Below are positions 1,236 through 50,542 of a stretch of 64,000 nucleotides of DNA, piece by piece. Position 1 is the stretch's first letter. Every line of letters starts with the position of its first letter. This stretch comes from Methanoculleus sediminis (lineage in GTDB: Archaea; Halobacteriota; Methanomicrobia; Methanomicrobiales; Methanoculleaceae). The notes beneath the pieces were generated by a model, which saw only the letters and a program-made list of their open reading frames with translations, was not told where the DNA came from and made no database searches. The stretch is taken from the NCBI RefSeq assembly GCF_001017125.1, contig NZ_JXOJ01000002.1, positions 807,017-871,016 on the forward strand. The letters run 5' to 3'. Position numbers and translations under genes: made by a program.

Positions 1236-1323
1236 AGGTCTCCCGAACGCCGAAGTGCGTGGGCCCGGCCCCGCAGCGGGGGGGAGACTTTTTCAACCTG
1301 TTTTCAATGTAGTGTACTTAACA

Positions 1324-1338
1324 TTAACATAATGTTAA
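1324..1338. promoter_or_regulatory. 15-bp palindrome upstream of the chelate-uptake operon
   Basis: TTAACATAATGTTAA is a perfect inverted repeat (7 + 1 + 7) in an AT-rich patch of otherwise GC-rich DNA. The left arm is preceded by another TTAACAT-like copy at about 1319. A TATA-like TTTTTAATAA lies just downstream at about 1345-1354, so the palindrome sits where an archaeal regulator would block or help TBP/TFB at the promoter of the gene starting at 1429. A metal-responsive regulator is a guess from the genes it precedes. Confidence 0.5.
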
Positions 1339-1428: not shown

Positions 1429-2511
1429 GTGGTAGCCATTACAAGACGTTGTTATCTTCTGATCCTCCTCCTCGGCATCTGCGGGGTGCTCCTCTGCGCC
1501 TCCGCCGCCTGCACGGCCACGCAGGGGACGCCCTCCCCTGCCGAGAACCGCACGATCACCGATATGGCGGGCCGGACCGTCGTCGTCCCGTCGGAGATCG
1601 AGAGCATCCTCTGCACATCGCCGCCGTCGACGATGCTCGTCTACATGATCGCGCCCGGCCGGCTCGCCGGCTGGAACTTCGCCCCGGTGAAGGAGTACAC
1701 CCCCGGGCGGTACGCAGCGCTCCCGGTCGTCGGAGGCTGGTTCGGGAAAGAAACCGGCAACTACGAGACGTTCATCTCGATGCACCCCGACATCATCGTC
1801 GAGGGCTACACCACCGACGGCGGGGCGGCGCTTGCCTCGGTCGCCGAACGGCAGCGGAAGATGGGCCCCATCCCGGTCGTCGCCGTCGAGGACACCGTCA
1901 ACGCCACCGGCTACTCCGCACCCATCAGGTTCATGGGCGATCTCCTCGGCGAGGAGGAGCAGGCCGAAGCGATGATCGCCTACTACGAGGGCGTCCTCGC
2001 CACGGTGACGGAGCGGGTGGCCTCGATCCCCGACGACGAGCGGGTGGCGGTCTACTACGCCGAGGGGCCGAAAGGGCTCATGACCGACCCCTCGGGCTCG
2101 CAGCACGCCGACCTCATCGACCTCTGCGGCGGGAGAAACGTCGCGGACTGCCCGATCACGCCGGGAATGGGGATGACGGAGGTCTCGATGGAGCAGGTCA
2201 TCGCCTGGGATCCGGAGGTCATCCTGGCCGCCGAACCGGCCTTTTACGCCACGGTCAGGACCGATCCGCTCTGGCAGGATATCACCGCCGTGAAGACCGG
2301 CCGGGTATACCTCATCCCGGAGACGGCGTTCGGCTGGATCGACCGCCCGCCGGGCATCAACCGGATCGTCGGGATCCCCTGGACCGCCAGGACCCTCTAT
2401 CCCGATCTCTTCCAGGACATGGACCTCGAATCCCTCGTCCGGGAGTATCACGAGATCTTCATCCACGTATCGCTCTCCGACGACCGGATCCGGGAGATCC
2501 TGAACCCCTGA
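1429..2511 (+). CDS. ABC transporter substrate-binding lipoprotein (FecB/BtuF-type)
   Basis: 360 residues from GTG at 1429. An N-terminal hydrophobic segment ends in LCASAAC, a lipobox that would anchor the protein by the cysteine at about residue 28. The mature part has the TroA/FecB/BtuF layout: ITDMAGRTVVVP at the start, SMHPDIIVEGY in the first lobe, a long linking helix, then ADLIDLCGGRNV, WDPEVILAAE and VKTGRVYLIPE in the second lobe. It would capture a metal chelate, heme or corrinoid outside the cell. It heads a + strand operon with a methyltransferase 7 bases later; the permease and ATPase are on the opposite strand at 4927-6911. Confidence 0.85.
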   Translation: MVAITRRCYLLILLLGICGVLLCASAACTATQGTPSPAENRTITDMAGRTVVVPSEIESILCTSPPSTMLVYMIAPGRLAGWNFAPVKEYTPGRYAALPVVGGWFGKETGNYETFISMHPDIIVEGYTTDGGAALASVAERQRKMGPIPVVAVEDTVNATGYSAPIRFMGDLLGEEEQAEAMIAYYEGVLATVTERVASIPDDERVAVYYAEGPKGLMTDPSGSQHADLIDLCGGRNVADCPITPGMGMTEVSMEQVIAWDPEVILAAEPAFYATVRTDPLWQDITAVKTGRVYLIPETAFGWIDRPPGINRIVGIPWTARTLYPDLFQDMDLESLVREYHEIFIHVSLSDDRIREILNP

Positions 2512-2518
2512 GGTCAAG

Positions 2519-3160
2519 ATGGGATACGTACCAGGCAGATTCGACCGCGACGGGGCGGAGGATATGGATCGGATCGCAAAGACGATCTTCGCCCCGGTCT
2601 ACCCGGTGATTGCACGACAGATAATCGAGCAGTGCGGGTTCTCCCGCGGCCGGTGCCTTGATATCGGCAGCGGCCCCGGCTCGCTCGGGATCGCTCTTGC
2701 GCAGGCGAGCGACCTTGCGGTCACGCTCCTCGACTCCTCCCCGGAGATGATCGCCGTTGCCGGAGGGAACGTCCGGGAGGCCGGGCTTTCGGCCCGCGTC
2801 GCGCTTCTATCAGGCGACGTTCACGAGATTCCGCTTCCCGACGGGTCCGTCGATCTCGCGGTCAGCCGCGGGTCGCTCTTCTTCTGGGAGGACCTCCCCC
2901 GCGCGTTCTCCGAGATCCACCGGGTTCTCGCGCCCGGCGGGAAGACCTACGTCGGAGGCGGGTTCGGAACGGCCGAACTCCGGGACGCCATCGCGGCCAC
3001 GATGGAGAGGGCGAACCCGGAGTGGAGGAGTTTCCGGGACAGGAACCTCGGCACGGATAATCGGGAGCGGGTCGCCGGGATCCTCGCGGATCTCGGGTTC
3101 TGTCACCGGCTCGTCAGCGACGACTCGGGGTTCTGGATCGTGATGGAGAAGGAGCGGTGA
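2519..3160 (+). CDS. Class I SAM-dependent methyltransferase in chelate-uptake operon
   Basis: 213 residues from ATG at 2519, with GAGGT at 2510-2514 as ribosome site overlapping the upstream stop. Motif I is CLDIGSGPGSLG, followed by the acidic TLLDSSPEM (SAM ribose contact) and the VHEIPLPDGSVDLAVSRGSLFFWEDLPRA core typical of UbiE/Methyltransf_11 enzymes. The substrate is not evident. Its place between a binding protein and a radical SAM-binding-protein fusion suggests that it modifies the imported compound or a metallophore, which is inference. Its stop overlaps the next frame. Confidence 0.85.
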   Translation: MGYVPGRFDRDGAEDMDRIAKTIFAPVYPVIARQIIEQCGFSRGRCLDIGSGPGSLGIALAQASDLAVTLLDSSPEMIAVAGGNVREAGLSARVALLSGDVHEIPLPDGSVDLAVSRGSLFFWEDLPRAFSEIHRVLAPGGKTYVGGGFGTAELRDAIAATMERANPEWRSFRDRNLGTDNRERVAGILADLGFCHRLVSDDSGFWIVMEKER

Positions 3161-3162
3161 GC

Positions 3163-4899
3163 ATGCGCTGCTCGATCTGCGAGAACCGATGCGCCGTCCC
3201 GCCCGGCGGCGTCGGGCGGTGCAGGATGTATACGAATGAGGGCGGAGCGATCGTCGAGCGGTTCCCCGACCGTTACATCGCGGTCATGCCGATCGCGATC
3301 GAGACGATGCCGATCTGCCACTACCACCCCCGCGGGACGTTCCTGCAGGCGAGCGGCATCGGGTGCACCTTCTCCTGCGGGGGATGCATATCCGAGACGA
3401 TCGCCCTCCACGCAGAGGCGGTCTCCGGGGCGCTCAGGCATATCCCGCCCGGCGCTCTGGTCAAGCGCGCCTTAAAAGAGGGGTGCCGGGGGATAGCGTT
3501 CTGCCTCAACGACCCGACCGCGATGCACCAGACCTTCCTCCGGGTGGCGCGGGCGGCGCACGACGCGGGCCTCCTCGTCGGGTGCGCGACGAACGGCTAC
3601 TACACGGAGGAGTCCCTCCGCGACCTCGCGCCCGTCGTCGACTTCGCGAACATCGGACTGAAGGGTGCATCCGATGCACGGTACCGCGCGTGCGGCGCGA
3701 TCTCGGCGGAACCGGCCTTCCGGACGGTGAAGACCCTTCACGAAGCAGGCGTCCACGTCGAGGTCTCCTGTATCCATTCCCGGGGGTGCGACGACGAGAT
3801 CCGGGCCGCGGCCGCCCGGGTCGCGGAGATCTCTCCCGACATCCCGTTCCTCGTCATGCGGTTCATCCCGTTCGGCGACGAACCGCCGGAGAGGGAACCG
3901 ACGATTGCGGAGTCGGAGCGGATCTGCGACGACCTGCGGCGGACGCTCCGCTACGTCTACCTCTTCAACTCGCCCGGAACCGGATACCTCGATACGGCGT
4001 GCCCGTCCTGCGGGAAGACCGTCGTCCGGCGGGAGTTCTTCGGGCCGATGGGAGCGCGGACGATCGCGATCCCGCCGGACGCCCGGTGCTCCTGCGGTTG
4101 TTCTCTCCCCGTGACCGGGAGGGTCGCGGAGACGCCCTACGCCGAGCCGGGGATGATGGGTGGCTACCGGTTCACCCGGGCGCTGGAGATGGTTCACGCC
4201 GTTCTGGTCTGCCTCGGCGTGGAGTCCGACGCCGACCTCGCCCGTATCTGGGCGGGGGTCATCCGGGACGACTACATCCGGGACCTCCATGGGAAGATCC
4301 AGTCAATAGACGGCTACCTCGATCTCGTCCGGGAACTCGGGGAGCGGGCCGGCCGCACCGGGGCGGCGGAGAGGCTGGCCGGCTACATCGGCGACCGGGT
4401 AACGGCGGTCTCGTCGGCGGTCGAGGGCTGCCGCCGGCCCCGGGTCTACTACTCGATGGGGACGCCGCTCTTTGCCCTGAACGCCGACCGGTTCGAGATG
4501 GACCTCGTGGAGGCGGCCGGCGGCGACCCCGTCAACCGCGGGATCGCCCGGGCCGGTAAACCGGGCGTCAACATAACGCCGGAGGAGTTTGCGGCGTTCA
4601 ACCCCGAGTACATCTTCGTGTCCGGGTTCCTCTCGGCGCCTGCCTCCGATTACATCGCGGCGTGCCGGAGGATGGGACTCTCCGCCGACGCCGTCGAGCG
4701 CGGCCGGGTTTACACCATGCCGCCGGGCTGGGACTTCGGCAACCCCCGCTGGGTGCTCGGCCTCTGTGCCATCGCACGGACTCTCCACCCGGAGCGGGCT
4801 GCCTTCGACCTTGCCGCGGAGCAGGACCGGTTCTACCGGACGTTCTATGGAACGGATGCGGCCGCGATCATGGGGAACCGGTCGTTCTATCGCCCATAG
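3163..4899 (+). CDS. Radical SAM protein fused to a FecB-type binding-protein lobe
   Basis: 578 residues from ATG at 3163, chosen because AAGGAG ends 8 bases upstream; a GTG at 3157 is also possible. Residues 1-30 carry CSICENRCAVPPGGVGRC. The radical SAM cluster motif CTFSCGGC (CxxxCxxC) follows at about 66-73, in a PflA/AmmeMemoRadiSam-like domain to about 260. A zinc-ribbon-like part (CPSCGK ... CSCGC) follows. From about residue 425 (RVYYSMGTPLFAL to RVYTMPPGWDFG) it matches the C-terminal lobe of FecB/BtuF binding proteins, including the one at 1429. There is no signal peptide, so this lobe is cytoplasmic. The fusion is unusual; the substrate is unknown. Confidence 0.85.
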   Translation: MRCSICENRCAVPPGGVGRCRMYTNEGGAIVERFPDRYIAVMPIAIETMPICHYHPRGTFLQASGIGCTFSCGGCISETIALHAEAVSGALRHIPPGALVKRALKEGCRGIAFCLNDPTAMHQTFLRVARAAHDAGLLVGCATNGYYTEESLRDLAPVVDFANIGLKGASDARYRACGAISAEPAFRTVKTLHEAGVHVEVSCIHSRGCDDEIRAAAARVAEISPDIPFLVMRFIPFGDEPPEREPTIAESERICDDLRRTLRYVYLFNSPGTGYLDTACPSCGKTVVRREFFGPMGARTIAIPPDARCSCGCSLPVTGRVAETPYAEPGMMGGYRFTRALEMVHAVLVCLGVESDADLARIWAGVIRDDYIRDLHGKIQSIDGYLDLVRELGERAGRTGAAERLAGYIGDRVTAVSSAVEGCRRPRVYYSMGTPLFALNADRFEMDLVEAAGGDPVNRGIARAGKPGVNITPEEFAAFNPEYIFVSGFLSAPASDYIAACRRMGLSADAVERGRVYTMPPGWDFGNPRWVLGLCAIARTLHPERAAFDLAAEQDRFYRTFYGTDAAAIMGNRSFYRP

Positions 4900-4926
4900 G
4901 GAGCGAAGAGAGCCGCCTTCGCGGCA

Positions 4927-5730
4927 TTACGCCTCCTCCCTCCCGCGGCAGCCGCACGGGCTCATCGGGATGCAGACCATCCGCTCCACCTCTTCGACGT
5001 AGCGGACACAGACGTCGATCCCGTAGGCCTCCCGCAGGTTCTCCTTCGTGATGACGTCCTCGGCCGGTCCCCGTGCGATCAGCCTGCCGTTCTCGAGGAT
5101 GGCGACCGTGTGCGAGAGCAGAAAACCGTGGTCCGGGAAGTGGGTGCTCATCAGGATGGCGATCCCGTCGGCGGCCAGCCGGTCGATCGTCGCGATCACC
5201 TTCATCTGGTTGCCGATATCGAGGTGCGACGTCGGTTCGTCGAGGATGAGCAGCGACGGCTCCTGGGCAAGAGCGCGGGCAATCATCACCATCTGCGACT
5301 CCCCGCCCGATATCTCGGAGATACACTTGTCCTGGAGGTGCGCTATCCCGATCCGCGCAAACGCCTCCTCCACCTTCTCGCAGTCCTCCTCCCCCGGGAC
5401 CGAGAAGGTCGGGATGTGGGGGGCTCTCCCCATGAGGGCGAAATCGAACGCCCTGAACGGAAAGACGGCGCGGTGCGTCTGGGGAACGTAGCCGATCTCG
5501 CGTGCGATCTCGTCGGGCCGCATGCCGGCGACCCGGCGGCCGTTGATCTCCACCTCCCCCTTCTGGAGCGTGAGGATGTTTAAGATGCACTTGATCAGGG
5601 TCGATTTTCCGGTCCCGTTCCTCCCGAGGAGGGAGAGGACCTCTCCTCTCCGGAGGGAGAGGGAGATCTCTTCGAACTGTTTTGTGATGCCGTCGTACGA
5701 GAACGAGGCGTTGTTGACGTTCAGGATCAT
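4927..5730 (-). CDS. ABC transporter ATPase (FecE/BtuD-type)
   Basis: 267 residues; the ATG at 5730 overlaps the permease stop (ATGA), so the two are translationally coupled. Walker A is GRNGTGKST, the Q-loop YVPQTH, the signature SGGESQMVMIARAL, Walker B LLILDEPTSHLD, and the switch His is in STHFPD. This is the cytoplasmic ATPase of an iron-siderophore, heme or cobalamin importer. The C-terminus ends in a short Cys/His-poor tail with CGCRGREEA. It is convergent with the radical SAM gene, with only 27 bases between stops. Confidence 0.92.
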   Translation of the reverse strand: MILNVNNASFSYDGITKQFEEISLSLRRGEVLSLLGRNGTGKSTLIKCILNILTLQKGEVEINGRRVAGMRPDEIAREIGYVPQTHRAVFPFRAFDFALMGRAPHIPTFSVPGEEDCEKVEEAFARIGIAHLQDKCISEISGGESQMVMIARALAQEPSLLILDEPTSHLDIGNQMKVIATIDRLAADGIAILMSTHFPDHGFLLSHTVAILENGRLIARGPAEDVITKENLREAYGIDVCVRYVEEVERMVCIPMSPCGCRGREEA

Positions 5731-6911
5731 GATATCCAGCCTACCTTTTTGCGTGTCAGGAGGTATGCAAAGAATGGCGCACCGACGAGCGACGTCAGGA
5801 TGCCGAGCGGGATCTCGGCTGCGGTCAGGGTTCTTGCGATGTCGTCGACGACGAGAAGGAACGATGCCCCGAGGATGGCTGATACGGGGATGAGCTTGCG
5901 GAAATCCGGGCCGACGAGCATCCTTCCTATGTGGGGGACGACGAGGCCGACCCAGCCGATGATCCCGCTGATACAGACCGCGGAGGCGGTGATGACCGTC
6001 GAGGCGATGATGAGCACCACGGTCATCCTCTTTGTGTCCACCCCGAGCGCCCGCGCCTCCTCTTCGCCGACCGCGAGGAGGTTGATCCGCCACCTGACGA
6101 GGTAAAGGCAGAGAGCGCCGAGAAGGATCGGCGGGGCAACCGCGATGACGTCGGCGTTCGAGACCGTAGAGAGGCTTCCCATCAGCCAGAAGACTATCGC
6201 GGGCAGGGTGTCGTACGGGTCGGCGATGTACTTGGTGAGGGATATGAAGGCGGAGAAGAGTGATCCAACGATGATCCCCCCGAGGACGAGGACGAGGGTC
6301 GAGCCCTTGCCGACGGCCCGACCGATGCCGTAGGTGACGGCGACCGCGAGGATCCCGAAGAAGAAGGCGGAGATCTGGATAACCATGGGGTTGCCGGAGA
6401 GGAGGATCCCGACGGCTGCCCCGAACCCTGCTCCGGCGGAGACGCCGAGGATGTCGGGCGAGACGAGGGGGTTTTTGAAGAGGCCCTGGAACGAGGCGCC
6501 GGCGATGGCGAGCCCTCCCCCGACGAGCATCGCCGCTATCAACCGCGGGAGCCTGATCCGGAAGACGACCGTCTCTTCCGATGCTCCCCAGGTCTGCTCG
6601 AAGGAGGGGAGGAGGACCGGGTGACCGGAGACGGCCGAGAGGAGGGACGACGCGCCGTCGAGGAACCCGTTCGCCGTTCCGACGATGAGGACCCGGAAGG
6701 TCTCCACCGGGTCCATCATGTATCTCCCGAAGAAGAGGGAGAAGAAGAAGAGGGCGACCGGGAGGAGATAGATGGCCTTCTCTGCCGGGATCAGCCGGAG
6801 AACGGCTTCGTGAACCGGCGTGCCGTCCCGAAAGACCGATCGCAAAAGACCGATCGCAGCGTTCCGGGGCTCCTGCCCGATCTCCATGATCGGCTCTTTC
6901 CTATGGGTCAT
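5727..6911 (-). CDS. FecCD-family transmembrane permease
   Basis: 394 residues, the usual size for BtuC/FecCD permeases plus about 50 extra N-terminal residues. It has roughly ten membrane helices and the family marks RLPRLIAAMLVGGGLAIAGA, FKNPLVSPDILGVSAGAGFG, GLVVPHIGRMLVGPD and EIPLGILTSLVGAPFFAYLL. It would form the channel for a metal-chelate or corrinoid taken from the lipoprotein at 1429. Start at ATG 6911; an ATG at 6887 is an alternative. An AT-rich promoter region with an inverted repeat lies upstream. Confidence 0.92.
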   Translation of the reverse strand: MTHRKEPIMEIGQEPRNAAIGLLRSVFRDGTPVHEAVLRLIPAEKAIYLLPVALFFFSLFFGRYMMDPVETFRVLIVGTANGFLDGASSLLSAVSGHPVLLPSFEQTWGASEETVVFRIRLPRLIAAMLVGGGLAIAGASFQGLFKNPLVSPDILGVSAGAGFGAAVGILLSGNPMVIQISAFFFGILAVAVTYGIGRAVGKGSTLVLVLGGIIVGSLFSAFISLTKYIADPYDTLPAIVFWLMGSLSTVSNADVIAVAPPILLGALCLYLVRWRINLLAVGEEEARALGVDTKRMTVVLIIASTVITASAVCISGIIGWVGLVVPHIGRMLVGPDFRKLIPVSAILGASFLLVVDDIARTLTAAEIPLGILTSLVGAPFFAYLLTRKKVGWIS

Positions 6912-6966
6912 CCGATGTACCGTCCATACCGGATATGCATACGATATTTACTTAATTATATGGAAA

Positions 6967-6988
6967 TGTAAACGACATAACATTTACA
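6967..6988. promoter_or_regulatory. Inverted repeat in promoter region of permease-ATPase operon
   Basis: TGTAAA and TTTACA are separated by 10 bases, within an AT-rich tract (about 6945-7000) upstream of the minus-strand permease gene. A TATA-like stretch (ATATAATTAAGTAAATAT on the minus strand, about 6943-6960) lies between it and the gene. The place matches a regulator site. It shares TTATGT-like words with the palindrome at 1324, which would fit one regulator for both halves of the uptake locus, but the match is loose. Confidence 0.4.
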
Positions 6989-7166
6989 ACAACGATAAAA
7001 AGGTTCTGAATACCCCGTTTTTCGGCTGCGGCCGGGGACTAAAAGTCATGCACCGAGCGTGCGCGGCCGGTGTCCTCGTAACCTGCTCACGTACTGGAGA
7101 AAAAGAGATGAGGAGGGTTTTTGGGCAGATACCTATTTTCGTTCCGGATCAGGGGTCGCCCCCCCC

Positions 7167-7856
7167 TCACTCCTCCGGCCCGTAGCAGCGCCGGAGGATC
7201 ACCGGGGTGCTCCGTGGCGCCCCGGCGGCCGTATCCGCAAAGAGCGCTGGAGCGGCGATGCGATCCCCCGGAACCGGAGGCGCCGGAACCGGGGAGAACG
7301 TCTGCGCCTCCCGCCACTCCCAGACGGCATCCATCACGGCGTCCGCCGTCGCCATGACGCTCGCGGCCCCGACGTCCACCACGACGGGGTTCGTGATATT
7401 CCACCGCTCGACGACCGTGTCGAGGAGCCGGCGCCGGACCGTCCAGACCATCGGCGGGTGGGGGTGTGCGAGCAGCCGGTCGAGCTGCTCCGCCCAGACC
7501 CCGCCCTGGAGCTCGAACCTCCCCACCTCGTCGATGACCACGAGATCGGTCTCCCGCGGGTCCGGCGGCGCGAGCGCCCTGCGGCCGAACGCGAGCCCTT
7601 CGGGGCGGAAATAGAACCGGCCGTGGGCCTCGCACCGGGGATCGGGGTCGATCGAGCAGAGTTCCTCGTGCCCGCCGGTGGCGAGATCGACCAGGGTGAA
7701 CCCCGACCTCCGCCCGTCCCGCACGTGTCCGGGAGCGATGACCCCGCGGACCCGGACGTTCAGCCCGACGATGAGCCCGAGAACCAGGTGCAGGAACGTC
7801 GTCTTGCACTGGCCCTGCCCGCCGGTGATGATGAAGACCGGCGCCCGGTGGTTCAT
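7167..7856 (-). CDS. THEP1-like P-loop nucleotide phosphatase with altered Walker A
   Basis: 229 residues from ATG 7856, chosen because GGAGGGG lies 7-8 bases upstream; the frame is open to 7916. The N-terminus FIITGGQGQCKTT is a P-loop and LVVIDEVGRFEL the Walker B of the NTPase/THEP1 family, small nucleoside-triphosphatases related to RecA-like folds. The usual GK before Thr is CK here (Cys replaces Gly), which is odd. The middle has GVIAPGHVRDGRRSGFTLVDLATG, typical of the family. Cellular role is unknown. It is alone on the minus strand between AT-rich gaps. Confidence 0.7.
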   Translation of the reverse strand: MNHRAPVFIITGGQGQCKTTFLHLVLGLIVGLNVRVRGVIAPGHVRDGRRSGFTLVDLATGGHEELCSIDPDPRCEAHGRFYFRPEGLAFGRRALAPPDPRETDLVVIDEVGRFELQGGVWAEQLDRLLAHPHPPMVWTVRRRLLDTVVERWNITNPVVVDVGAASVMATADAVMDAVWEWREAQTFSPVPAPPVPGDRIAAPALFADTAAGAPRSTPVILRRCYGPEE

Positions 7857-8064
7857 CCCGGAACCCCTCCGCTGCAATAGGTCGGGCGGGGAGTGTTCGC
7901 TCCGGAGTACATGCATATACTTCCGGGCTAATCATATAAATCATTTTTACTTGAGGGGTTTGTTTATGTGATCTTGTTGACCGGGTGGGCCGGGCCTCCC
8001 GGCATACCGCCCTCCATCAGTATAAGTAGCAACGACGGAAAATACCATAACGGAGTTAATTGTT

Positions 8065-8550
8065 ATGGCAGAGACAAAAGTCGTGCTCCACACGACCATG
8101 GGAGAGATCACGATCCGCCTCTACGACGACATGCCGGTGACCGCGGGGAACTTTGTGAAACTCGCGAAGTCCGGGTTCTACGACGGCACGATCTTTCATA
8201 GGGTGATCGCGAACTTCATGATCCAGGGCGGCGATCCCACCGGCACCGGAACGGGCGGGCCGGGCTACACCATCACCGATGAGTTCGTGAAGGGCCACTC
8301 GAACGTCCGGGGGACGATCGCGATGGCGAACACCGGCCGCCCCAACTCCGGCGGCAGCCAGTTCTTCATCAACCTCGTCGACAACACCTACCTCGACTGG
8401 GACAACCCCCGGACGCCGAGCGCCCACCCGGTCTTCGGCGAGGTGGTCAGCGGGATGGACGTCATCGACAAGATCGGGAAGGTGAAGACGGACTCCGCCG
8501 ACCGGCCGAAGGTCCCCGTCCGGATCGAGAAGGCGGAAGTCCTGGAGTAA
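8065..8550 (+). CDS. Cyclophilin-type peptidyl-prolyl cis-trans isomerase
   Basis: 161 residues, the size of a single-domain cytoplasmic cyclophilin. It has [19 protein letters not shown] with the catalytic Arg, then [20 protein letters not shown] and [15 protein letters not shown]. It catalyses proline isomerisation in protein folding. GGAG lies about 11 bases before the ATG at 8065, and a TATA-like TATAAGTA sits at about 8020. The next gene starts 9 bases after its stop, so the two may be cotranscribed. Confidence 0.93.
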
Positions 8551-8559
8551 TCCTTTTTT

Positions 8560-9030
8560 ATGCGCCATAGTGACGCCGGCTACGGGAATCCGGGCGTGGT
8601 CGAGGAGCGGATCGGCTATACCTTCAAGGATCGTTCGCTCCTCGAACGGGCGCTCACCCGCCTCGCCTACACCCTGGAGGCAGGCCTCCCTCCGGACGCC
8701 CACATGGACGCTCTCGCCACCCTCGGCGATGCGGTCATCAACGTCGCGGTGGTGGAGGCGGTGGTCGCGGGCGGGGCGCACGACAAGGGAGCGATCACCA
8801 ACGAGAAGATGAACCTGGTGAACATGACCCGGCTCCGCGGGCTCGCGGAGGGCCTCGACCTCGCGGACTACGTCCGCTGGGGAAAAGGGGAGGCCGCCCA
8901 GAGGGTCTGGACCTCCGGCCGGGTCCTCGCCGAGTGCCTGGAAGCCCTCGTCGGCGCCGTCTACCTGGACGGCGGGATGGGTGCGGCCGCGGGAGTGCTC
9001 CGGCGGCTCGGGCTCACGGAGAAGGCGTAA
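8560..9030 (+). CDS. RNase III-like domain protein with altered active site
   Basis: 156 residues holding one RNase III catalytic domain (FKDRSLLERALTRLAY, HMDALATLGDAVINV, LAECLEALVGAVYLDGG) and no dsRNA-binding domain. Compared with the E. coli signature HNERLEFLGD, the first Glu is Asp50 and the second Glu (E41) is Ala53; Asp57 is kept. In the second half Asp114 is Glu125 and Glu117 is Glu128. Two or three metal ligands are therefore changed, so activity is uncertain. Its last 17 bases overlap the convergent permease gene. Confidence 0.75.
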   Translation: MRHSDAGYGNPGVVEERIGYTFKDRSLLERALTRLAYTLEAGLPPDAHMDALATLGDAVINVAVVEAVVAGGAHDKGAITNEKMNLVNMTRLRGLAEGLDLADYVRWGKGEAAQRVWTSGRVLAECLEALVGAVYLDGGMGAAAGVLRRLGLTEKA

Positions 9031-10309
9031 CCCCTTCTTCTCTCTCCTCCCCCGGTGCCGGAACCCCCGCCGGCGGCCGCATCAGGAGCCAGGCGACGCC
9101 GAACCCCGCCGCCGCGAGGGCCGCGACCCACGGGAAGACCCCGAGGTAGGTTCCGGTCGCCGTCCGGATGAACCCCGCGAGCTGCGGCCCGGCGATGGCG
9201 CCTGCGCCGTAGGCGAGGAAGACGACCCCGTAGCAGCGCGGGTAGTCGCACGTCCCGAAGTAGGAGGCCGTCGCCGTCGGCGCGATCGCAAGCCAGCCTC
9301 CGAGGCAGCCCCAGAGGACGGCGAACGCGACGACGTAGGCCGGCACACCCGGTGCGAGCCACATCAGGACGGACGCCGCCGCAATCAGACCAAACGTCAG
9401 CATCGCCGTCTTCTGCGCCGATATCCGGTCGGCAAGCCCGCCGAATGCCGGCCGGCCCAGCCCGTTGAAGACGGCGAAGAACCCGACGAGGAGCGTCGCG
9501 AGCCCCGCGTCCACCCCGGCGAGTTCGGTCCCGACCGGTTTTGCAATCGAGATCGCCATCAGCCCCGCGAGGCAGCCGACGAAGTAGCAGGCGAAGAGCC
9601 CGTAGAACGTCCCCGTCCGGAGCATCCCTCTCCGGTCGCACTCGCAGACCGGCGTCGTTCCGACCCCGGGCGCGGGCGCCGACCAGCCCGCCGGCCGCCA
9701 GCCCTCCGGCGGGAACCGGAGCGGCAGGGCCGAGAGAACCAGGACGGCGATCAGCGCGGCGCCGAAGATCCGGAACGTCGCCATGACCCCGTAGGCGGCG
9801 ATCAGGGCTCCTGCGGCGTTCGCGGTGACGAAGGCCGAGAACCCGAACCCGAGGAGGGCGAGCCCGACGGCAAGACCCCGCCGGTCCGGGAACCATCGGG
9901 CGGCCACGGCGACCGGCGCCCCGTAGGCGATCCCGACACCGAGGCCGCCGATAACGCCGTAGACGACGTAGAGTGCCTCGACCGACGTCGCCGTCGAGGC
10001 GAGGAGCCACCCGAGGCCGGTGAGGAGCCCGCCGACGACCGTCACCTTCCGCGGGCCGTAGCGCTCGATGTACTTCCCGGCGAGCGGCATGGCTATCGCG
10101 AAGAAGGCGAGGAAGACCGAGAACGGGAGGAGAACCTCCGCCGCCGTCACCTCCCGGCCGAGCGTCGCGGTGAAGTGCGCCGCAAGCGGCGCGACGAAGA
10201 CGCTCCAGGAGTAAATGCTCCCGAGGCAGAGGTTGACGACGAGGCCGAGGGCGACGAGCCCCCACCGCCCCTTCTCCGCAGGCAGGCCGAAGATCGTTGT
10301 ATCCGGCAT
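9014..10309 (-). CDS. MFS transporter, oxalate/formate antiporter (OFA) family
   Basis: 431 residues with about 12 membrane helices and OFA-type marks: LCLGSIYSWSVFVAPL in helix 1, PLAGKYIERYGPRKV between helices 2 and 3, and GLGVGIAYGAPVAVAARWFPDRRGLAVGLA. It follows acs by 6 bases on the same strand and is surely cotranscribed. Since acs activates acetate, the permease likely moves acetate or another small carboxylate, which is inference from the operon. OFA proteins elsewhere exchange oxalate, formate or similar acids. Confidence 0.9.
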   Translation of the reverse strand: MPDTTIFGLPAEKGRWGLVALGLVVNLCLGSIYSWSVFVAPLAAHFTATLGREVTAAEVLLPFSVFLAFFAIAMPLAGKYIERYGPRKVTVVGGLLTGLGWLLASTATSVEALYVVYGVIGGLGVGIAYGAPVAVAARWFPDRRGLAVGLALLGFGFSAFVTANAAGALIAAYGVMATFRIFGAALIAVLVLSALPLRFPPEGWRPAGWSAPAPGVGTTPVCECDRRGMLRTGTFYGLFACYFVGCLAGLMAISIAKPVGTELAGVDAGLATLLVGFFAVFNGLGRPAFGGLADRISAQKTAMLTFGLIAAASVLMWLAPGVPAYVVAFAVLWGCLGGWLAIAPTATASYFGTCDYPRCYGVVFLAYGAGAIAGPQLAGFIRTATGTYLGVFPWVAALAAAGFGVAWLLMRPPAGVPAPGEEREEGVTPSP

Positions 10310-44085: not shown

Positions 44086-45595
44086 TGCCGGTGGACTGGA
44101 CGGCGCTCCAAGAGAGCTGAACACGACCCCGGGATACGAGGAGGCCGCCGCCGCGGCGGACGCGAGCGGCCGGCCCCTTCTCGTCCCGGTATATGAAGAG
44201 ATCCCGCTCCCCGCGGCATCGCCGGCCGCCCTCTATGCCTCCCTCCGGGACGGCCCGGGGTTCCTGCTCGAGTCGCTCGAGGGGAGCGCGAAGGCCGCCC
44301 GTTACTCGTTCATCTGCACCGCCCCTGCCGCGACCGTCGCCGTGGCCTCCGACGGCACGCTGACGGTCTCCGGTAATGCGCACATCCGGGAGGTCGCCGC
44401 CGGCGTCGAGGGCGAAGACCCCCTCGATGCCCTCCGGTCGTTCATGGGCCGGTTCCGGGTCGCCGCTGCGCCGCTTCCCCGGTTCTCCGGGGGGCTTGCC
44501 GGTTACTTCTCCTACGACCTCGTCTCGTCCCTCTACCCGGTTCCCCGGCCGGGGGGAGCCGAAGAACCCGTCGCCCGGTTCATGCTGGCGCAGGACTGCC
44601 TCGCCCTCGACCACAAACGAGAGCGGCTCGCGGTCGTCGCGAACCTGCTCGTTGTTGACGGGACCGATGTGGAGGAAGAGTACGCCCGGGTCGGGACAGC
44701 GATCGCGGAACGAATCGCCCGGATTCGCGATCTCCCGCCGCCGCTCCCGTGCGAACCGTGCAGGTCCGGCGTCCCGGCGTCGTCCTGCAGCCCGGACGAG
44801 TTCTCGGACGCGGTCCTCCGGCTAAAAGAGCATATCACGGCGGGCGACGTCTTCCAGGCCGTCCTCTCCCGGCGGCTCGCCTGCCGCATCGAGGGCGACC
44901 CGTTCGCCGTCTACCGGCGGCTCCGGACGGAAAACCCGAGCCCCTACATGTACTACCTGGATTTCGGCGACCGCCAGGTCGCCGGGAGCAGCCCCGAGAT
45001 GCTCGTCCGGGTTGAGGACGGCCGGGTGATGACCGTCCCGATCGCCGGTACCCGGCCGCGGGGGCGGACCCCGGCGGAAGACGACCGGCTCGCGGCCGAG
45101 CTCCTGGCCGACGAGAAAGAGCGGGCGGAGCACGTCATGCTCGTCGACCTGGCAAGAAACGACGTCGGCGCGGTCTCCGCCTTCGGGAGCGTCTCGGTGA
45201 AGGACTTCATGACCGTCGAGCGGTTCTCCCACGTCCAGCACATCGTCTCCACGGTCTCGGGCACGCTTCGCCCGGGGTGCGATCGGTTCGATGCCCTCCG
45301 CTCCTGCTTCCCGGCGGGAACCGTCTCGGGGGCCCCGAAGGTCCGGGCGATGCAGATCATCGGCGAGACGGAGGGGCTCCGCCGCGGTATCTATGCCGGA
45401 GCCGTCGGTTATGTCGGGTTTTCCGGCACGATGGACCTTGCAATAGCCATCCGGACGGTTCTGGTGCAGGACGGCGTCGCTTCCGTCCAGGTGGGGGCGG
45501 GGATCGTGGCCGACTCCGACCCCGGCCGGGAGTGGACCGAGACCGAGAACAAAGGGCGGGCGATGCTTGCGGCGCTCGGCGCGGAGGTGGAGTGA
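44085..45595 (+). CDS. trpE: Anthranilate synthase component I, start frameshifted
   Basis: The main frame covers 44117-45595: LLES (about 44264, tryptophan feedback site), GDVFQAVLSRRL, MYYLDFGDRQVAGSSPEML, PIAGTRPRGRTPAEDDRLAAELLADEKERAEHVMLVDLARND and SCFPAGTVSGAPKVRAMQII are all intact. There is no ATG, GTG or TTG in this frame before 44342, and a start there would delete LLES. An ATG at 44085 overlapping the trpB2 stop gives [11 protein letters not shown] then TGA at 44118; one added base in the GAGAG at 44112-44116 would join it to LNTTPGYEEA. Coordinates span that reading. With TrpG it makes anthranilate from chorismate. Confidence 0.85.
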
Positions 45596-46227
45596 TGCGG
45601 GTGCTCGTCATCGACAGCTACGACAGTTTCACCTTCAATCTCTGTCAGCAGATCGGGGTGCTCGGGGCGGAACCGGTCGTGGTGAAGAGCGATACGCCGT
45701 TCGAACGGATCCAATCCGAATCGTTCGACCGGATCGTCCTCTCGCCCGGGCCCGGGCATCCCCGGGATTCCGCCCTCTACCGGGAGGTCCTCGCGACGAT
45801 CAGCCGGACCGTCCCGACGCTCGGGGTCTGTCTCGGCCACCAGGCGATCGGCCTCGCCTTCGGCGCCCGCATCACCCGGGCGGACCGGCTGATGCACGGG
45901 AAGCGGTCGCTCGTCCGGCACGACGGTGCGGGGATCTACGCGGGCGTGCCCGCCCCCCTCGTCGCGACCCGCTACCACTCGCTCGTCATCGACCCGGCAT
46001 CCGTCCCGGACTGCCTCGCGGTGACCGCCACGAGCGACGACGGAACGGTGATGGGCGTCCGGCACCGGTCGTTCCCGATCGAGGGGGTGCAGTTCCACCC
46101 TGAAAGCATCCTCACTCCCGAGGGGGACCGGCTGGTGGCGAACTTCCTCTCCGGCGCCGGGTCCTGCGGAGCCGGAGCCGGCCCGGCGGGACCAGGGGTC
46201 CCGCTCGGCACGGGAGGCGCGGCATGA
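45595..46227 (+). CDS. trpG: Anthranilate synthase component II (glutamine amidotransferase)
   Basis: 210 residues; ATG at 45595 overlaps the trpE stop (TGATG). Class I amidotransferase marks: [43 protein letters not shown] with the Cys nucleophile, and GVQFHPESI with the His and Glu. It supplies ammonia from glutamine to TrpE. The C-terminus has a Gly/Ala-rich tail ([18 protein letters not shown]) beyond the usual end. Confidence 0.95.
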
Positions 46228-47240
46228 TCCGCGAGGCGATCGCCCGGGTCTCCTCGGGCACGGACCTCTCCCCGGCCGAGGCGGGAGGGGTGATGGAGGA
46301 GATCATGCGGGGCGCGGCGACACCCGCCCAGATCGGCGGGTTTCTGACGGCGCTCCGGATGAAGGGGGAGACCGTTATAGAGATAGCGGCGTTCGCCCGG
46401 GTGATGCGGGCGGCGGCCGTCCCGGTCGCCCTCCCGGCTCCCGCGGCGCGGGTGGATACCTGCGGTACCGGGGGCGACGGCGCCGGGACGTTCAACATCA
46501 GCACCGCGGCCGCCTTCGTCGCGGCCGGTGCGGGCGTCTCCGTCGTGAAGCACGGGAACCGGGGGGTTTCGAGCCGGTGCGGCTCGGCCGACGTCCTCGA
46601 GGCGCTCGGGGTCGACGTCGCGACCCCGCCCGAACGGGTGGCGGACGTCCTTGCGGCGGCCGGGATCGCGTTCCTCTTCGCCCCGGCCTACCACCCGGCG
46701 ATGCAGTACGCCCGCACCGCCCGCGAGGATATCGGGATCCGGACGGTCTTCAACCTCCTCGGCCCCCTGACGAACCCGGCGGGTGCGGGAGCCCATCTCC
46801 TCGGCGTCTACGATCCCCGCCTGACCCTTCCGGTCGCCCGGGTCCTCGGCGATCTCGGGGCGGAGCGGGCGATGGTGGTCCACGGTGCGGGGCTCGACGA
46901 GATCGCGACGGCCGGCCCGACGACGGTCGCGGAACTCCGGGGCGGCGGGGTCACGACGTATACCCTCGACTGCACGGAGTTCGGGATCCCGCGTTCGTCC
47001 GTCGCGGCCATCCGGGGCGGCGGGCCGGAGGAGAACGCCGCGACCCTTCTTTCCGTCCTCGCGGGCGAGGAGGGCCCCGCGCGGGATATCGTCCTCCTCA
47101 ACGCCGGGGCGGCGATCTACCTCGGCGGCAAGGCCGGCGACATCGCCGGGGGCATCACCTGCGCCGAGACGTCGATCGACTCGGGGGCGGCGCTCGACCG
47201 GCTCCGCCGGTTGGTCGGGGCGACCGGAGGCGGGGCATGA
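46224..47240 (+). CDS. trpD: Anthranilate phosphoribosyltransferase
   Basis: 338 residues; ATG at 46224 overlaps the trpG stop. Marks: [35 protein letters not shown] (PRPP loop), [22 protein letters not shown], and [16 protein letters not shown]. It moves the phosphoribosyl group of PRPP to anthranilate, the second step of the pathway. Full length and intact. Confidence 0.96.
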
Positions 47241-47989
47241 TCCTCGACGAGATCGTCAGGTCGACCGGCGAGCGCCTCCGGCACCTCGACCAACCGGTCG
47301 ATCCCGACCCCCTGCCCCGCCGGAGCCTCGCAGCGGCGATACGCGTCTCTTCCGGGAGGCACGCGGTCATCGCCGAGGTGAAGTACGCCTCCCCGTCGCG
47401 GGGGAGGATCCACGAAGGCTGCACCCCCGAAGCGATCGCCCGGGAGTTCGTCGCCGCCGGGGCCGCCGGCCTCTCGGTGCTGACCGAACCCACCTATTTC
47501 GGGGGGAGCACCGGGTACCTCGTCCGGGTGCGGCGTGCGGTATCCGTCCCGGTCCTCAGGAAGGACTTCATCATCGACGAGCGCCAGCTCGGCGAGACCC
47601 GGGCGCTCGGCGCCGACGCCGTCCTCCTGATCGCCCGGGTGCTCGGCGACCGTCTCCCCGCGTTCGTCGACGGGGCGCTCGCGCTCGGGCTCGAGCCGCT
47701 CGTCGAGGTCCACGACAGAGACGAGATGGAGCGCGCTCTCGCGACGGATGCGACCCTCATCGGGATCAACAACCGCAACCTGGCAACGATGACGATCGAT
47801 CTCTCCACGACCGTCCGCCTGGCGAGAGCGGCCCGCGATGCGGGGCGGCTCGTGGTCTCGGAGAGCGGTATCACGTGGCCCTGCGACGTCCGGAGCCTCT
47901 CCCGGCACTGCGACGCGTTCCTGATCGGATCCGCCCTGATGTCGGCCCGCGACCGGAAAAAAAGGCTGGAGGGGTTCGTATTCGCGTGA
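47237..47989 (+). CDS. trpC: Indole-3-glycerol-phosphate synthase
   Basis: 250 residues; ATG 47237 overlaps the trpD stop. TIM-barrel marks: [15 protein letters not shown] (the Lys-x-x-Ser-Pro-Ser group), [57 protein letters not shown] and LVVSESGI. It closes the indole ring with loss of CO2. Intact. Confidence 0.96.
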
Positions 47990-48561
47990 AGATCTGCGGG
48001 ATGACGAGCGTTCGCGACGCACTCCTCGCCGTGGCGGCCGGTGCCGACGCGATCGGCGTGGTACTCGCGAGCCCCTCCCCGCGTTCGGTGACCCCTGAAG
48101 CGGCCCGTGAGATATTCGCGGCGGTTCGGCCGTTCGTGGCCACGGTCGCGGTCACCTCGACCGACCGGCCCGAAGACGTCGCGGCGCTTCTCCTCTCGCG
48201 GCCGGACGCGGTCCAGGTGCCGGGCGATCTGGAACTCCCTCCTGATGCGGGGGTGCGGGTCATCAGGATGCTCTCTCCCGGCGACGCTCTCCGGGACGAC
48301 TGCGATGCAGTGATCGTCGATGGCAGCCACGGCACCGGGCGGGCGTTCGACCCGGAGTATGCCAGAAGATGCGTGGCCGCCTCCCCGGTGCCGGTCATCC
48401 TCGCGGGAGGCCTCACCCCCCACAACGTCGCCGACGCGATCCTGGCGGTCCGGCCGCATGGGGTCGATGTCTGTTCAGGCGTCGAGGCGGCGCCGGGGAT
48501 CAAGGACGAGCGCCTCGTGCGGGCGTTCGTGAAGATATGCAGGATGATGGACAACCCATGA
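47986..48561 (+). CDS. trpF: Phosphoribosylanthranilate isomerase
   Basis: 191 residues from GTG 47986, overlapping the trpC stop; the family start [15 protein letters not shown] follows directly, so the longer open frame upstream is not used. Marks: VKICGM with the catalytic Cys, [31 protein letters not shown] with the catalytic Asp, and [30 protein letters not shown]. Slightly short but complete. Third step of the pathway. Confidence 0.94.
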
Positions 48562-49730
48562 AACCAGGACGATACGGTATATACGGCGGGCAGTACGTGC
48601 CCGAGACCCTGATGAGCGCGCTGATCGAACTCGAGGAGACCTACGAGCGGGTTCGCGAGGACCCGGAGTTCTCCCGCCGGCTCTCCTGGTACCTCCGCGA
48701 GTACGCCGGGCGGGAGACGCCGCTCACTTACTGTTCGAACCTCTCCCGCGACCTCGGCTGCCGCGTCTACCTGAAACGCGAGGATCTCCTCCACGGCGGT
48801 GCGCACAAGCTGAACAACACCCTCGGCCAGGCGCTGATGGCGAAGTTCATGGGCAAGCGCCGGCTGATCGCCGAGACGGGAGCCGGACAGCACGGCGTCG
48901 CGACGGCGATCGCGGGCGCGGCGCTCGGTCTCCCTGTCGAGGTCTACATGGGCGAGGTGGATACCCGCCGCCAGGCATTGAACGTCTTTCGGATGGAACT
49001 CCTCGGTGCCCGGGTCGTCCCGGTCGTTTCCGGGACGCGGACGCTGAAGGACGCCATCAACGCGGCGATGCGCGACTGGGTGGCGAACCTCGGGGAGACC
49101 CACTACCTGCTCGGCTCCTGCGTCGGCCCGCACCCCTTTCCCCGGATCGTCCGCGATTTCCAGTCGGTCATCGGCGAGGAGACGAGAAGACAGATCCTTG
49201 AGAGGGAAGGTCGGCTCCCCGACACCGTCGTCGCCTGCGTCGGCGGGGGTTCGAACGCGATCGGCATCTTCTACCCGTTCGTTGGCGACGACGTTGCACT
49301 GGTCGGCGTGGAAGCGGGAGGCGAGGGGCTCGATTCCGGCCGACACGGGGCCTCGCTCTCTGCCGGTTCGGTCGGGGTCTTTCAGGGGGCGCTCTCCTAC
49401 CTTCTCCAGGACGGCGACGGCCAGGCGCTCGAGACGCACTCCGTCGCCGCGGGCCTCGACCACCCCTCGGTCGGGCCGGAGCACGCCATGCTGAAGGACT
49501 CCGGGCGGGTCCGCTACGAGGCGGTCACCGACGCCGAGGCACTCCACGCCTTCCGCCGTCTCTCCCGCACCGAGGGGATCATCCCGGCGCTCGAGTCCGC
49601 CCACGCGGTCGCCTACGCCCTCCGGGCGGCGGACGATCTCGATAAGGACGGCATCCTCGTCGTCAACCTCTCGGGGAGGGGGGATAAAGACGTCGCCGAC
49701 GTCGCGAACCTTCACGGGGGCGTCGCATGA
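48558..49730 (+). CDS. trpB: Tryptophan synthase beta chain, canonical TrpB1
   Basis: 390 residues; ATG 48558 overlaps the trpF stop. Marks: [35 protein letters not shown] with the PLP Lys, [20 protein letters not shown]-like contact loop ([17 protein letters not shown]), and [15 protein letters not shown]. This is the TrpA-dependent type, directly followed by trpA. It condenses indole with serine. Confidence 0.96.
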
Positions 49731-50542
49731 GCCGGATCGCCGGCCTCTTTGCCCGGAAGAGCCCGGTCTTCATCGGGTTCACCGTTGCCGGAGACCCCGG
49801 CATCGAGGCGTCGCTCCGGGTGGCGAAGGCGATGATCGATGCGGGCGCCGACCTCCTCGAGATCGCCGTCCCCTATGCCGACCCGGTGGCGGACGGCCCC
49901 GTGATCGAGCGGGCGCATGTCCGCGCCCTCCGGGCAGGCACGACTGCGGACGACGTCTTCGCCCTCGTCCGGCGGATCAGGGGATATGCGCCGGCGCTCC
50001 CCCTCGTCCTCTTCACCTACTATAACATCATCCACCGCCGGGGACCCGACCGGTTCTTTGCGGAGGCCGCGGCCTCCGGCGCGGACGGCGTCCTCATCGT
50101 CGACCTCCCCGTCGAGGAGTCGGACGAGGTCGCGCCCTACGCCGCCCGGCACGGCATCGACCGTATCGCTCTCATCGCCCCGACGACCTCGCCGGAACGG
50201 CAGCACACGATCCTTTCCGGAGCATCCGGGTTTGTTTACCTGATCTCGCTCGAAGGGGTGACCGGCGAACGCGACCACCTCCCCCCCGGCCTCGCCGGGC
50301 TGGTCGGCGCGGTGCGGGAGAAGACCGGCCTTCCCCTCGCCGTCGGGTTCGGGGTCTCGCGCCCGGAGCACGTCCAAACCGTCGTCGCCGCCGGCGCGAA
50401 CGGCGTCATCGTGGGGAGCGCGCTCGTCCGGCTGATCGAGGAGCACGCGGGCGACGAGGCCGGGATGCAGGATGCCCTCCGGGCGGCGATAGCCACCCTC
50501 CGGCGCGGGCTCGTCCCCGACCCCGAACCTGATATACCCTGA
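49727..50542 (+). CDS. trpA: Tryptophan synthase alpha chain
   Basis: 271 residues; ATG 49727 overlaps the trpB stop. Marks: [44 protein letters not shown] with catalytic Glu, [30 protein letters not shown] with catalytic Asp, and [14 protein letters not shown]. It splits indole-glycerol phosphate and passes indole to TrpB. Last gene of the operon; the next 230 bases hold a palindromic repeat. Confidence 0.96.

Follow-up and report, generated by a model that had tools for sequence, protein, structure and literature searches.

Why should an archaeon join a radical S-adenosylmethionine (SAM) enzyme to part of a substrate-binding protein (SBP), and encode the product beside the genes of a FecCD-type importer? 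This question is raised by a locus of Methanoculleus sediminis that lies within the window analysed here, a 64,000-nucleotide stretch of contig NZ_JXOJ01000002.1 (assembly GCF_001017125.1, positions 807,017 to 871,016). The evidence summarised below points to molybdenum (Mo) and tungsten (W), and this link of the fusion system to the two metals is well supported. The explanation that we tentatively favour, whilst holding it to be somewhat short of probable, is that the system serves Mo/W acquisition in strict anaerobes, with an imported Mo/W chelate being captured and radical-processed in the cytoplasm. Mo and W limit the formate, aldehyde and formylmethanofuran enzymes as well as nitrogenase, and both are scarce in accessible form under sulfidic, anoxic conditions.

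The fusion protein and its predicted structure

The genes of the locus and the parts of the fusion protein are as follows.

1429..2511, plus strand: FecB/BtuF-type substrate-binding lipoprotein (the window SBP), 360 amino acids; PF01497, E 1.4e-23; GTG start; lipobox LCASAAC recognised by eye
2519..3160, plus strand: class I SAM methyltransferase, the constant partner of the fusion; PF08241, E 4e-22
3163..4899, plus strand: radical SAM enzyme fused to a class III binding-protein C-lobe, 578 amino acids
3253..3963, plus strand: radical SAM core of the fusion, residues 31-267, with invariant cysteines
3364-3387, plus strand: cysteine motif C68-x3-C72-x2-C75 of the fusion
4000..4098, plus strand: zinc-ribbon-like CPxC...CxC of the fusion, residues 280-312
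4168..4317, plus strand: helical connector replacing the N-lobe, residues 336-385 (secondary structure of the model)
4357..4863, plus strand: long inter-lobe helix (399-419) and C-lobe (427-567) of the fusion
4927..5730, minus strand: ATP-binding cassette (ABC) ATPase, FecCD/BtuD type; PF00005, E 1e-32
5727..6911, minus strand: FecCD/BtuC-type permease, 394 amino acids; PF01032, E 1e-86

The fusion reading frame is open throughout, with no internal stop. Its N-terminal half belongs to the radical SAM superfamily (PF04055, E 2e-12, 47.9 bits against a cut-off of 29.5), and residues 1-324 as a whole are those of a PflA/AmmeMemoSam-type enzyme, the best NCBIfam match being to nearly the full length of TIGR04337 (AmmeMemoRadiSam) at 102.4 bits, under the curated cut-off of 220. 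Across 26 homologues with 37-95% identity to the window protein, the three cysteines of the CTFSCGGC motif (C68, C72 and C75) are invariant, as are four N-terminal cysteines (C3, C6, C10 and C20) and the four of the ribbon (C280, C283, C309 and C311). Because all of these are invariant, the enzyme is likely to be active.

Two familiar roles were considered and rejected. Membership of the AmmeMemoRadiSam system is ruled out by the sub-cut-off score together with the position of the genes for AMMECR1 and Memo, present once each in the genome (at C12 and C8:124729) and not adjacent to the fusion locus (C8:810179) but far from it. A role as glycyl-radical activase in this genome is ruled out by the absence of any Gly_radical protein (PF01228), in a search that did return matches from control genomes. 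The HemN/ChuW model is absent from the NCBIfam and Pfam matches listed for the fusion, absence from such a list not amounting to exclusion.

At the other end of the protein, residues 383-521 match PF01497 at 28.7 bits, over the curated cut-off of 27.5, and residues 380-548 match TIGR04281 (E 3e-9, below its cut-off). The C-terminal part also aligns with the adjacent lipoprotein, at 27% identity across 190 residues (E 8e-9). The initial annotation of the locus had paired short stretches of the two proteins, and because the PF01497 cut-off is passed and the lipoprotein itself is matched, these pairings reflect real homology.

An AlphaFold2 model of the fusion, built from 26 sequences, has a mean pLDDT (per-residue confidence) of 89.4 and a pTM (overall confidence) of 0.90. 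In Foldseek the binding protein 4hn9 ranks first (E 1e-12), with PflA among the best matches, and alignment with VIA-align places residues 31-267 on PflA (3c8f; Z 19.4, rmsd 2.9, 223 residues) and residues 340-567 on 4hn9 (Z 22.0, rmsd 2.4, 216 residues). The sequence match to 4hn9 is limited to the linker helix and C-lobe (fusion 387-565 to 4hn9 156-332). The two-lobe architecture of an SBP is not reproduced, residues 336-385 being helical only and the N-lobe sheet missing from the model; what is retained is a C-lobe with its linker helix and a helical connector, rather more than a bare lobe. Since pTM is high, the model suggests that the radical SAM part and the lobe are held in a defined mutual arrangement, in which the radical SAM domain would stand in place of the missing N-lobe.

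No hydrophobic N-terminus is seen in the fusion by eye. The initial annotation thus proves sound in describing a PflA-like radical SAM domain, a zinc-ribbon-like part, a C-terminus resembling the second lobe of the lipoprotein and the lack of a signal peptide, and the structure prediction against the FecB/BtuF fold that it proposed bears it out; its lone cytoplasmic lobe stands as to the missing N-lobe sheet but has to be extended by the linker helix and connector. One residue sets the lobe apart from its extracytoplasmic relatives: glutamate E255 of the SBP C-lobe is conserved in 98% of SBPs, whereas its equivalent, E474, is found in 53% of fusions. E255 is possibly a permease-docking residue, by analogy with BtuF, and its relaxation is weakly consistent with a lobe that may no longer dock outside the membrane.

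Distribution and conserved gene neighbours

When 84,980 species genomes were scanned, 75 loci emerged, and the fusion, whole or in part, is present in nearly all of them. The archaeal carriers are Methanoculleus, Methanoregula, Methanolinea, Methanospirillum, Methanogenium, Methanosarcina, Methanolobus and a Desulfurococcales metagenome-assembled genome (MAG), and the bacterial carriers Desulfobacula, Desulfobacter, Desulfosarcina, Syntrophobacteraceae, Syntrophomonas, Desulfosporosinus and a Moorella MAG; within the phylum of the window, the C-terminal part of the fusion was present in 49 of 392 sampled genomes. An assembly artefact is ruled out, the fusion being intact in tens of species from both domains. 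In a maximum-likelihood tree of 69 fusions (midpoint-rooted, with some deep branches weak or long) there are two large clades, and because bacterial sequences nest among archaeal ones the tree suggests that the gene has passed between domains.

Several variants were noted in passing. In one single-contig Methanoculleus genome (L035, G030:C1:19689-21423) a frame change interrupts the fusion gene, so that the system there is either decaying or mis-sequenced. Four loci of the same order as the window (L058, L059, L060 and L061) have a stand-alone radical SAM paralogue of 313-335 amino acids with the methyltransferase and importer, together with a 616-768 amino acid binding protein containing two Peripla_BP_2 stretches and, close by, AA_kinase proteins resembling Mo storage proteins. 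The stand-alone gene is accompanied by a 386-397 amino acid protein with no Pfam or NCBIfam match (L099 7499-8689, L058 8224-9381 and relatives), whose hosts are Desulfobacula and archaea of the same order as the window.

Neighbours were counted in 56 groups, dereplicated at 85%, with 40 regions drawn at random from those genomes as controls. The methyltransferase lies directly upstream of the fusion on the same strand in 35 groups, and FecB and FecCD are found nearby in 34 and 29 groups, respectively, against two of the control regions. In fresh archaeal loci, mostly from Methanosarcinaceae, each of the three occurs within 10 kb in 14 of 16 cases (0/18 controls), usually in the order SBP-methyltransferase-fusion-FecCD-ATPase; in Methanosarcinaceae the fusion sits within a compact five-gene operon. 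TonB-dependent receptors lie inside the Gram-negative clusters L136 and L119.

In the window, the parts of a FecCD/BtuCD type II importer are complete (PF01032, PF00005 and PF01497, all over cut-off). The methyltransferase and importer that the initial annotation had placed beside the fusion are therefore real and recurrent, as the gene-neighbourhood search that it proposed makes clear, but in this genome the ATPase and FecCD genes are convergent with the fusion gene and not co-operonic with it. Compared by sequence with solved structures, the window SBP is nearest to 4pag (E 7e-54) and 4ovk, and then to the molybdate-binding protein MolA (3psa, E 3e-21), its closest characterised relative among them.

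Molybdenum and tungsten in the regulation and context of the fusion

The regulatory evidence on the metal comes from an Rfam scan of 18 fusion loci against 4227 families, in which Methanosarcina (L113) was the sole archaeal locus covered. The scan found four riboswitches of the Mo cofactor (Moco) class (RF01055) and one flavin mononucleotide riboswitch, the latter in L112, approximately 4 kb beyond the fusion. The leading gene of the fusion operon follows a Moco element by 260 nt in L104 (80.8 bits) and by 160 nt in L105/L106 (55.7 bits), whilst in Moorella (L141) the order is riboswitch (69.4 bits), SBP, methyltransferase, fusion and ModA, the riboswitch being approximately 60 nt before a frameshifted SBP reading frame. 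Three Bacillota lineages have intact sequence upstream of the operon, and in each a Moco riboswitch precedes it. Because there are only 13 (L104), 15 (L105/L106) and three (L141) Moco RNAs in these genomes, proximity by chance is unlikely; by our arithmetic, fewer than 0.001 would be expected, in each, on that strand in the 300 nt ahead of the operon. All three distinct elements retain the P3 stem that Regulski et al. (PMC2408646) tied to Moco rather than to the tungsten cofactor (Tuco). The riboswitch evidence comes from these three lineages, of which two belong to the same family, and from a more distant element in Desulfosporosinus, 2.4 kb upstream of the fusion and inside a Mo island.

None of the 18 loci yielded a cobalamin riboswitch, and the cis-acting elements that do precede the operons belong to the Moco class; a cobamide or heme ligand was rejected on these grounds. 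A broader alternative sees the ligand as a tetrapyrrole or an iron, nickel or cobalt chelate and the Mo/W link as indirect, all of these being limiting in the same anaerobes. The permease and ATPase of the window do score best against BtuC, F420-0 and heme importer models (F420-0, corrinoid and heme importer ATPases in the case of the ATPase), all below cut-off; the TonB receptors of L136 and L119 are nearest to heme, siderophore and B12 classes, again below cut-off; and nickel-type Opp genes lie near some clade II fusions. Desulfosporosinus (L111) also has NifD-, NifK- and NifH-like genes of 388, 452 and 287 amino acids between the methyltransferase and the fusion (6487-9899), additional to a complete Anf operon downstream, and this trio could act on a tetrapyrrole. 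Set against this are the operon riboswitches, Moco in all three Bacillota lineages and cobalamin in none, and nitrogenases of Mo starvation as neighbours, and we consider the alternative quite improbable. Of the chelate or tetrapyrrole ligand of the initial annotation, the chelate type is retained, in view of the TonB receptors, but the cobamide, heme, F430 and iron siderophore candidates give way to evidence pointing to Mo/W.

That evidence includes the genes around the fusions. The Desulfosporosinus island contains mod-like genes, two Moco RNAs, XdhC, a molybdate-type PBP_like regulator and the Anf nitrogenase operon, and Methanosarcinaceae have second copies of the fusion gene next to Vnf and Anf operons. 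These alternative nitrogenases, the V type (Vnf) and the Fe-only type (Anf), are the enzymes of Mo starvation. Family models confirm ModB and ModA (both over cut-off), a TOBE molbindin, MoeA and FmdE near fusions, and MoeA with molybdopterin oxidoreductase is Pfam-confirmed in further fusion loci; formylmethanofuran dehydrogenase-like (FwdA, FwdD) and MoeA-like genes were also seen by eye beside fusions in Methanofollis (L124 1082-4487) and in a genome of the same order (L043 14298-17701). Any Mo/W marker is present in 20 of the 56 groups and five of the 40 controls (p 0.009, for markers picked after inspection). The riboswitch result, coming from an unbiased scan, is stronger evidence than this enrichment.

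Might the importer, then, carry bare molybdate or tungstate, or thiometalates, with the fusion as a cytoplasmic metal chaperone or maturase that takes the oxyanion into its lobe and applies radical SAM chemistry to Mo/W cofactor assembly? MolA is the nearest characterised relative of the SBP, second fusion copies adjoin nitrogenase operons, and NifB, a radical SAM enzyme of Mo-cofactor assembly, matches the core structurally (Z 16.7), the fold being a common one. Molybdate is, moreover, imported by MolBC-A (PMC4031551). TonB receptors would nonetheless be unexpected for a small oxyanion, ModA or ModABC is already encoded in some of the fusion operons and Mo is not needed by the Vnf and Anf nitrogenases. 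It is because of the receptors and of ModA/ModABC in some of the same operons that a cargo other than a bare oxyanion is indicated; the evidence suggests a chelate, and we regard the bare-oxyanion alternative as improbable.

Processing of an imported chelate or synthesis of a chelator?

Taking acquisition by import and processing as the preferred explanation, the binding lipoprotein, with a TonB receptor in Gram-negative species, would pass a Mo/W chelate on to the FecCD importer. Once inside the cell, the chelate would be held by the fusion between its radical SAM barrel, at the place of the N-lobe, and the retained C-lobe; fusion and partner methyltransferase may then modify or open the ligand by 5'-deoxyadenosyl-radical chemistry, which would free the metal for Moco/Tuco or for the iron-molybdenum cofactor of nitrogenase.

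The chemical change on entry that the initial annotation suggested is conjectural, and biosynthesis of a chelator, the main rival of the processing explanation, is nearly as good an interpretation. Here the fusion and methyltransferase would build a small molybdophore or tungstophore, the C-lobe holding the precursor or the metal-loaded product, the radical SAM domain modifying it and FecBCD re-importing the loaded product. Genes for methyltransferases, O-methyltransferases and DUF364 proteins, the last annotated by Pfam as putative heavy-metal chelation, do accumulate around the fusions (DUF364 in 10/56 groups and 0/40 controls), and control by Moco riboswitches is compatible with either direction. 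DUF364 as a general partner of the fusion is ruled out by its absence from the window genome. The minimal conserved set is, however, just methyltransferase, fusion and importer, and synthesis by two enzymes would require a ready substrate; in the neighbourhoods viewed, no non-ribosomal peptide synthetase, NRPS-independent siderophore (NIS) synthetase, RiPP (ribosomally synthesised, post-translationally modified peptide) precursor or export gene was seen, no systematic search having been made. On balance, we consider chelator synthesis unlikely, if a serious contender.

Several observations weigh against acquisition of a Mo/W chelate. No Mo gene lies beside the window locus, and the scan found no Moco riboswitch in the Desulfobacterota and Proteobacteria loci that it covered. 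The marker enrichment was not replicated: with a preset list of Mo/W markers, one of 16 fresh archaeal loci scored within 10 kb, against none of 18 controls, although Vnf/Anf neighbours were recognised afterwards in two of the 16. Some clade II copies adjoin Opp/nickel-type ABC genes and may serve another metal, and MolBC-A is a FecBCD-type importer of the bare anion.

A bolder version of the acquisition proposal is that there is a dedicated molybdophore or tungstophore, entering as its Mo/W chelate via TonB and FecBCD, and that the radical SAM enzyme uses half a binding protein as a substrate-holding lid, which would make this the first enzyme-lobe of its sort and the first such Mo/W metal-chelate pathway in anaerobes. 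We think this doubtful as it stands. A literature search, with most subscription papers outside its reach, found no molybdophore system or comparable fusion in anaerobes.

Taken together, the results suggest an undescribed uptake route for scarce Mo and W in bound form. How methanogens, syntrophs and sulfate reducers supply themselves with these metals beyond ModABC, TupABC and WtpABC is a question made directly testable by a conserved importer that comes with a dedicated radical SAM enzyme and, in Bacillota, is controlled by Moco riboswitches. The system also offers a candidate function for a whole branch of AmmeMemoSam-like enzymes and an example of a binding-protein lobe recruited into an enzyme.

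Other features of the window

Beyond the permease gene and in the upstream regions lie three further features.

7167..7856, minus strand: P-loop NTPase_1 protein, a possible accessory; PF03266, E 2e-17
1318..1338, upstream of the lipoprotein gene: AT-rich inverted repeat TTAACATTAACATAATGTTAA, operator candidate, partly conserved in aligned Methanoculleus upstream regions
6968..6987, minus strand, upstream of the permease gene: AT-rich inverted repeat GTAAATGTTATGTCGTTTAC, operator candidate, largely conserved in aligned Methanoculleus upstream regions

In L054, L121, L124, L127 and L145, homologues of the NTPase_1 gene are immediately adjacent to the clade II fusion gene or overlap it, by 4 nt in the case of L124. 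A genome-wide search with GTAAATGTTATGTCGTTTAC at one mismatch returned the permease site alone, so that no regulon can be drawn. Farther along the window, positions 44342-50542 resemble a tryptophan biosynthesis operon by eye.

Comparison with known systems

In anaerobic heme use by ChuW, ChuA and ChuTUV, ChuW opens the metal complex after its import, releasing the metal with no need of oxygen. The two systems share a TonB receptor, a FecBCD-type importer and a cytoplasmic radical SAM enzyme. ChuW, however, belongs to the HemN-like class C radical SAM methyltransferases, whereas the fusion is PflA/AmmeMemoSam-like, carries a binding-protein lobe and has a separate methyltransferase, and the Chu ligand is heme whilst the context of the fusion system is Mo/W.

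Among radical SAM enzymes, PflA (3c8f) shares the core fold (Z 19.4) and the CxxxCxxC motif, but the window genome has no glycyl-radical enzyme and the fusion has in addition a cysteine-rich N-terminus, a cysteine-rich ribbon and the lobe. The AmmeMemoRadiSam enzyme (TIGR04337) is the best NCBIfam match of residues 1-324, but at 102 bits for a cut-off of 220, with AMMECR1 and Memo elsewhere in the genome and no binding-protein lobe in the model.

With the class III SBPs (FecB, BtuF, MolA; 4hn9) the fusion has in common the inter-lobe helix and C-lobe (Z 22); it differs from them in lacking the N-lobe sheet and any signal sequence that could be seen, in being joined to an enzyme and in the relaxed glutamate (98% for E255, 53% for E474). 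MolBC-A of Haemophilus influenzae (MolA, 3psa), likewise a FecB/FecCD/ATPase importer for Mo/W, is related to the window system through MolA by sequence (E 3e-21 to the SBP); it is a low-affinity importer of bare molybdate, and no radical SAM fusion or methyltransferase is mentioned in the part of its description consulted (PMC4031551).

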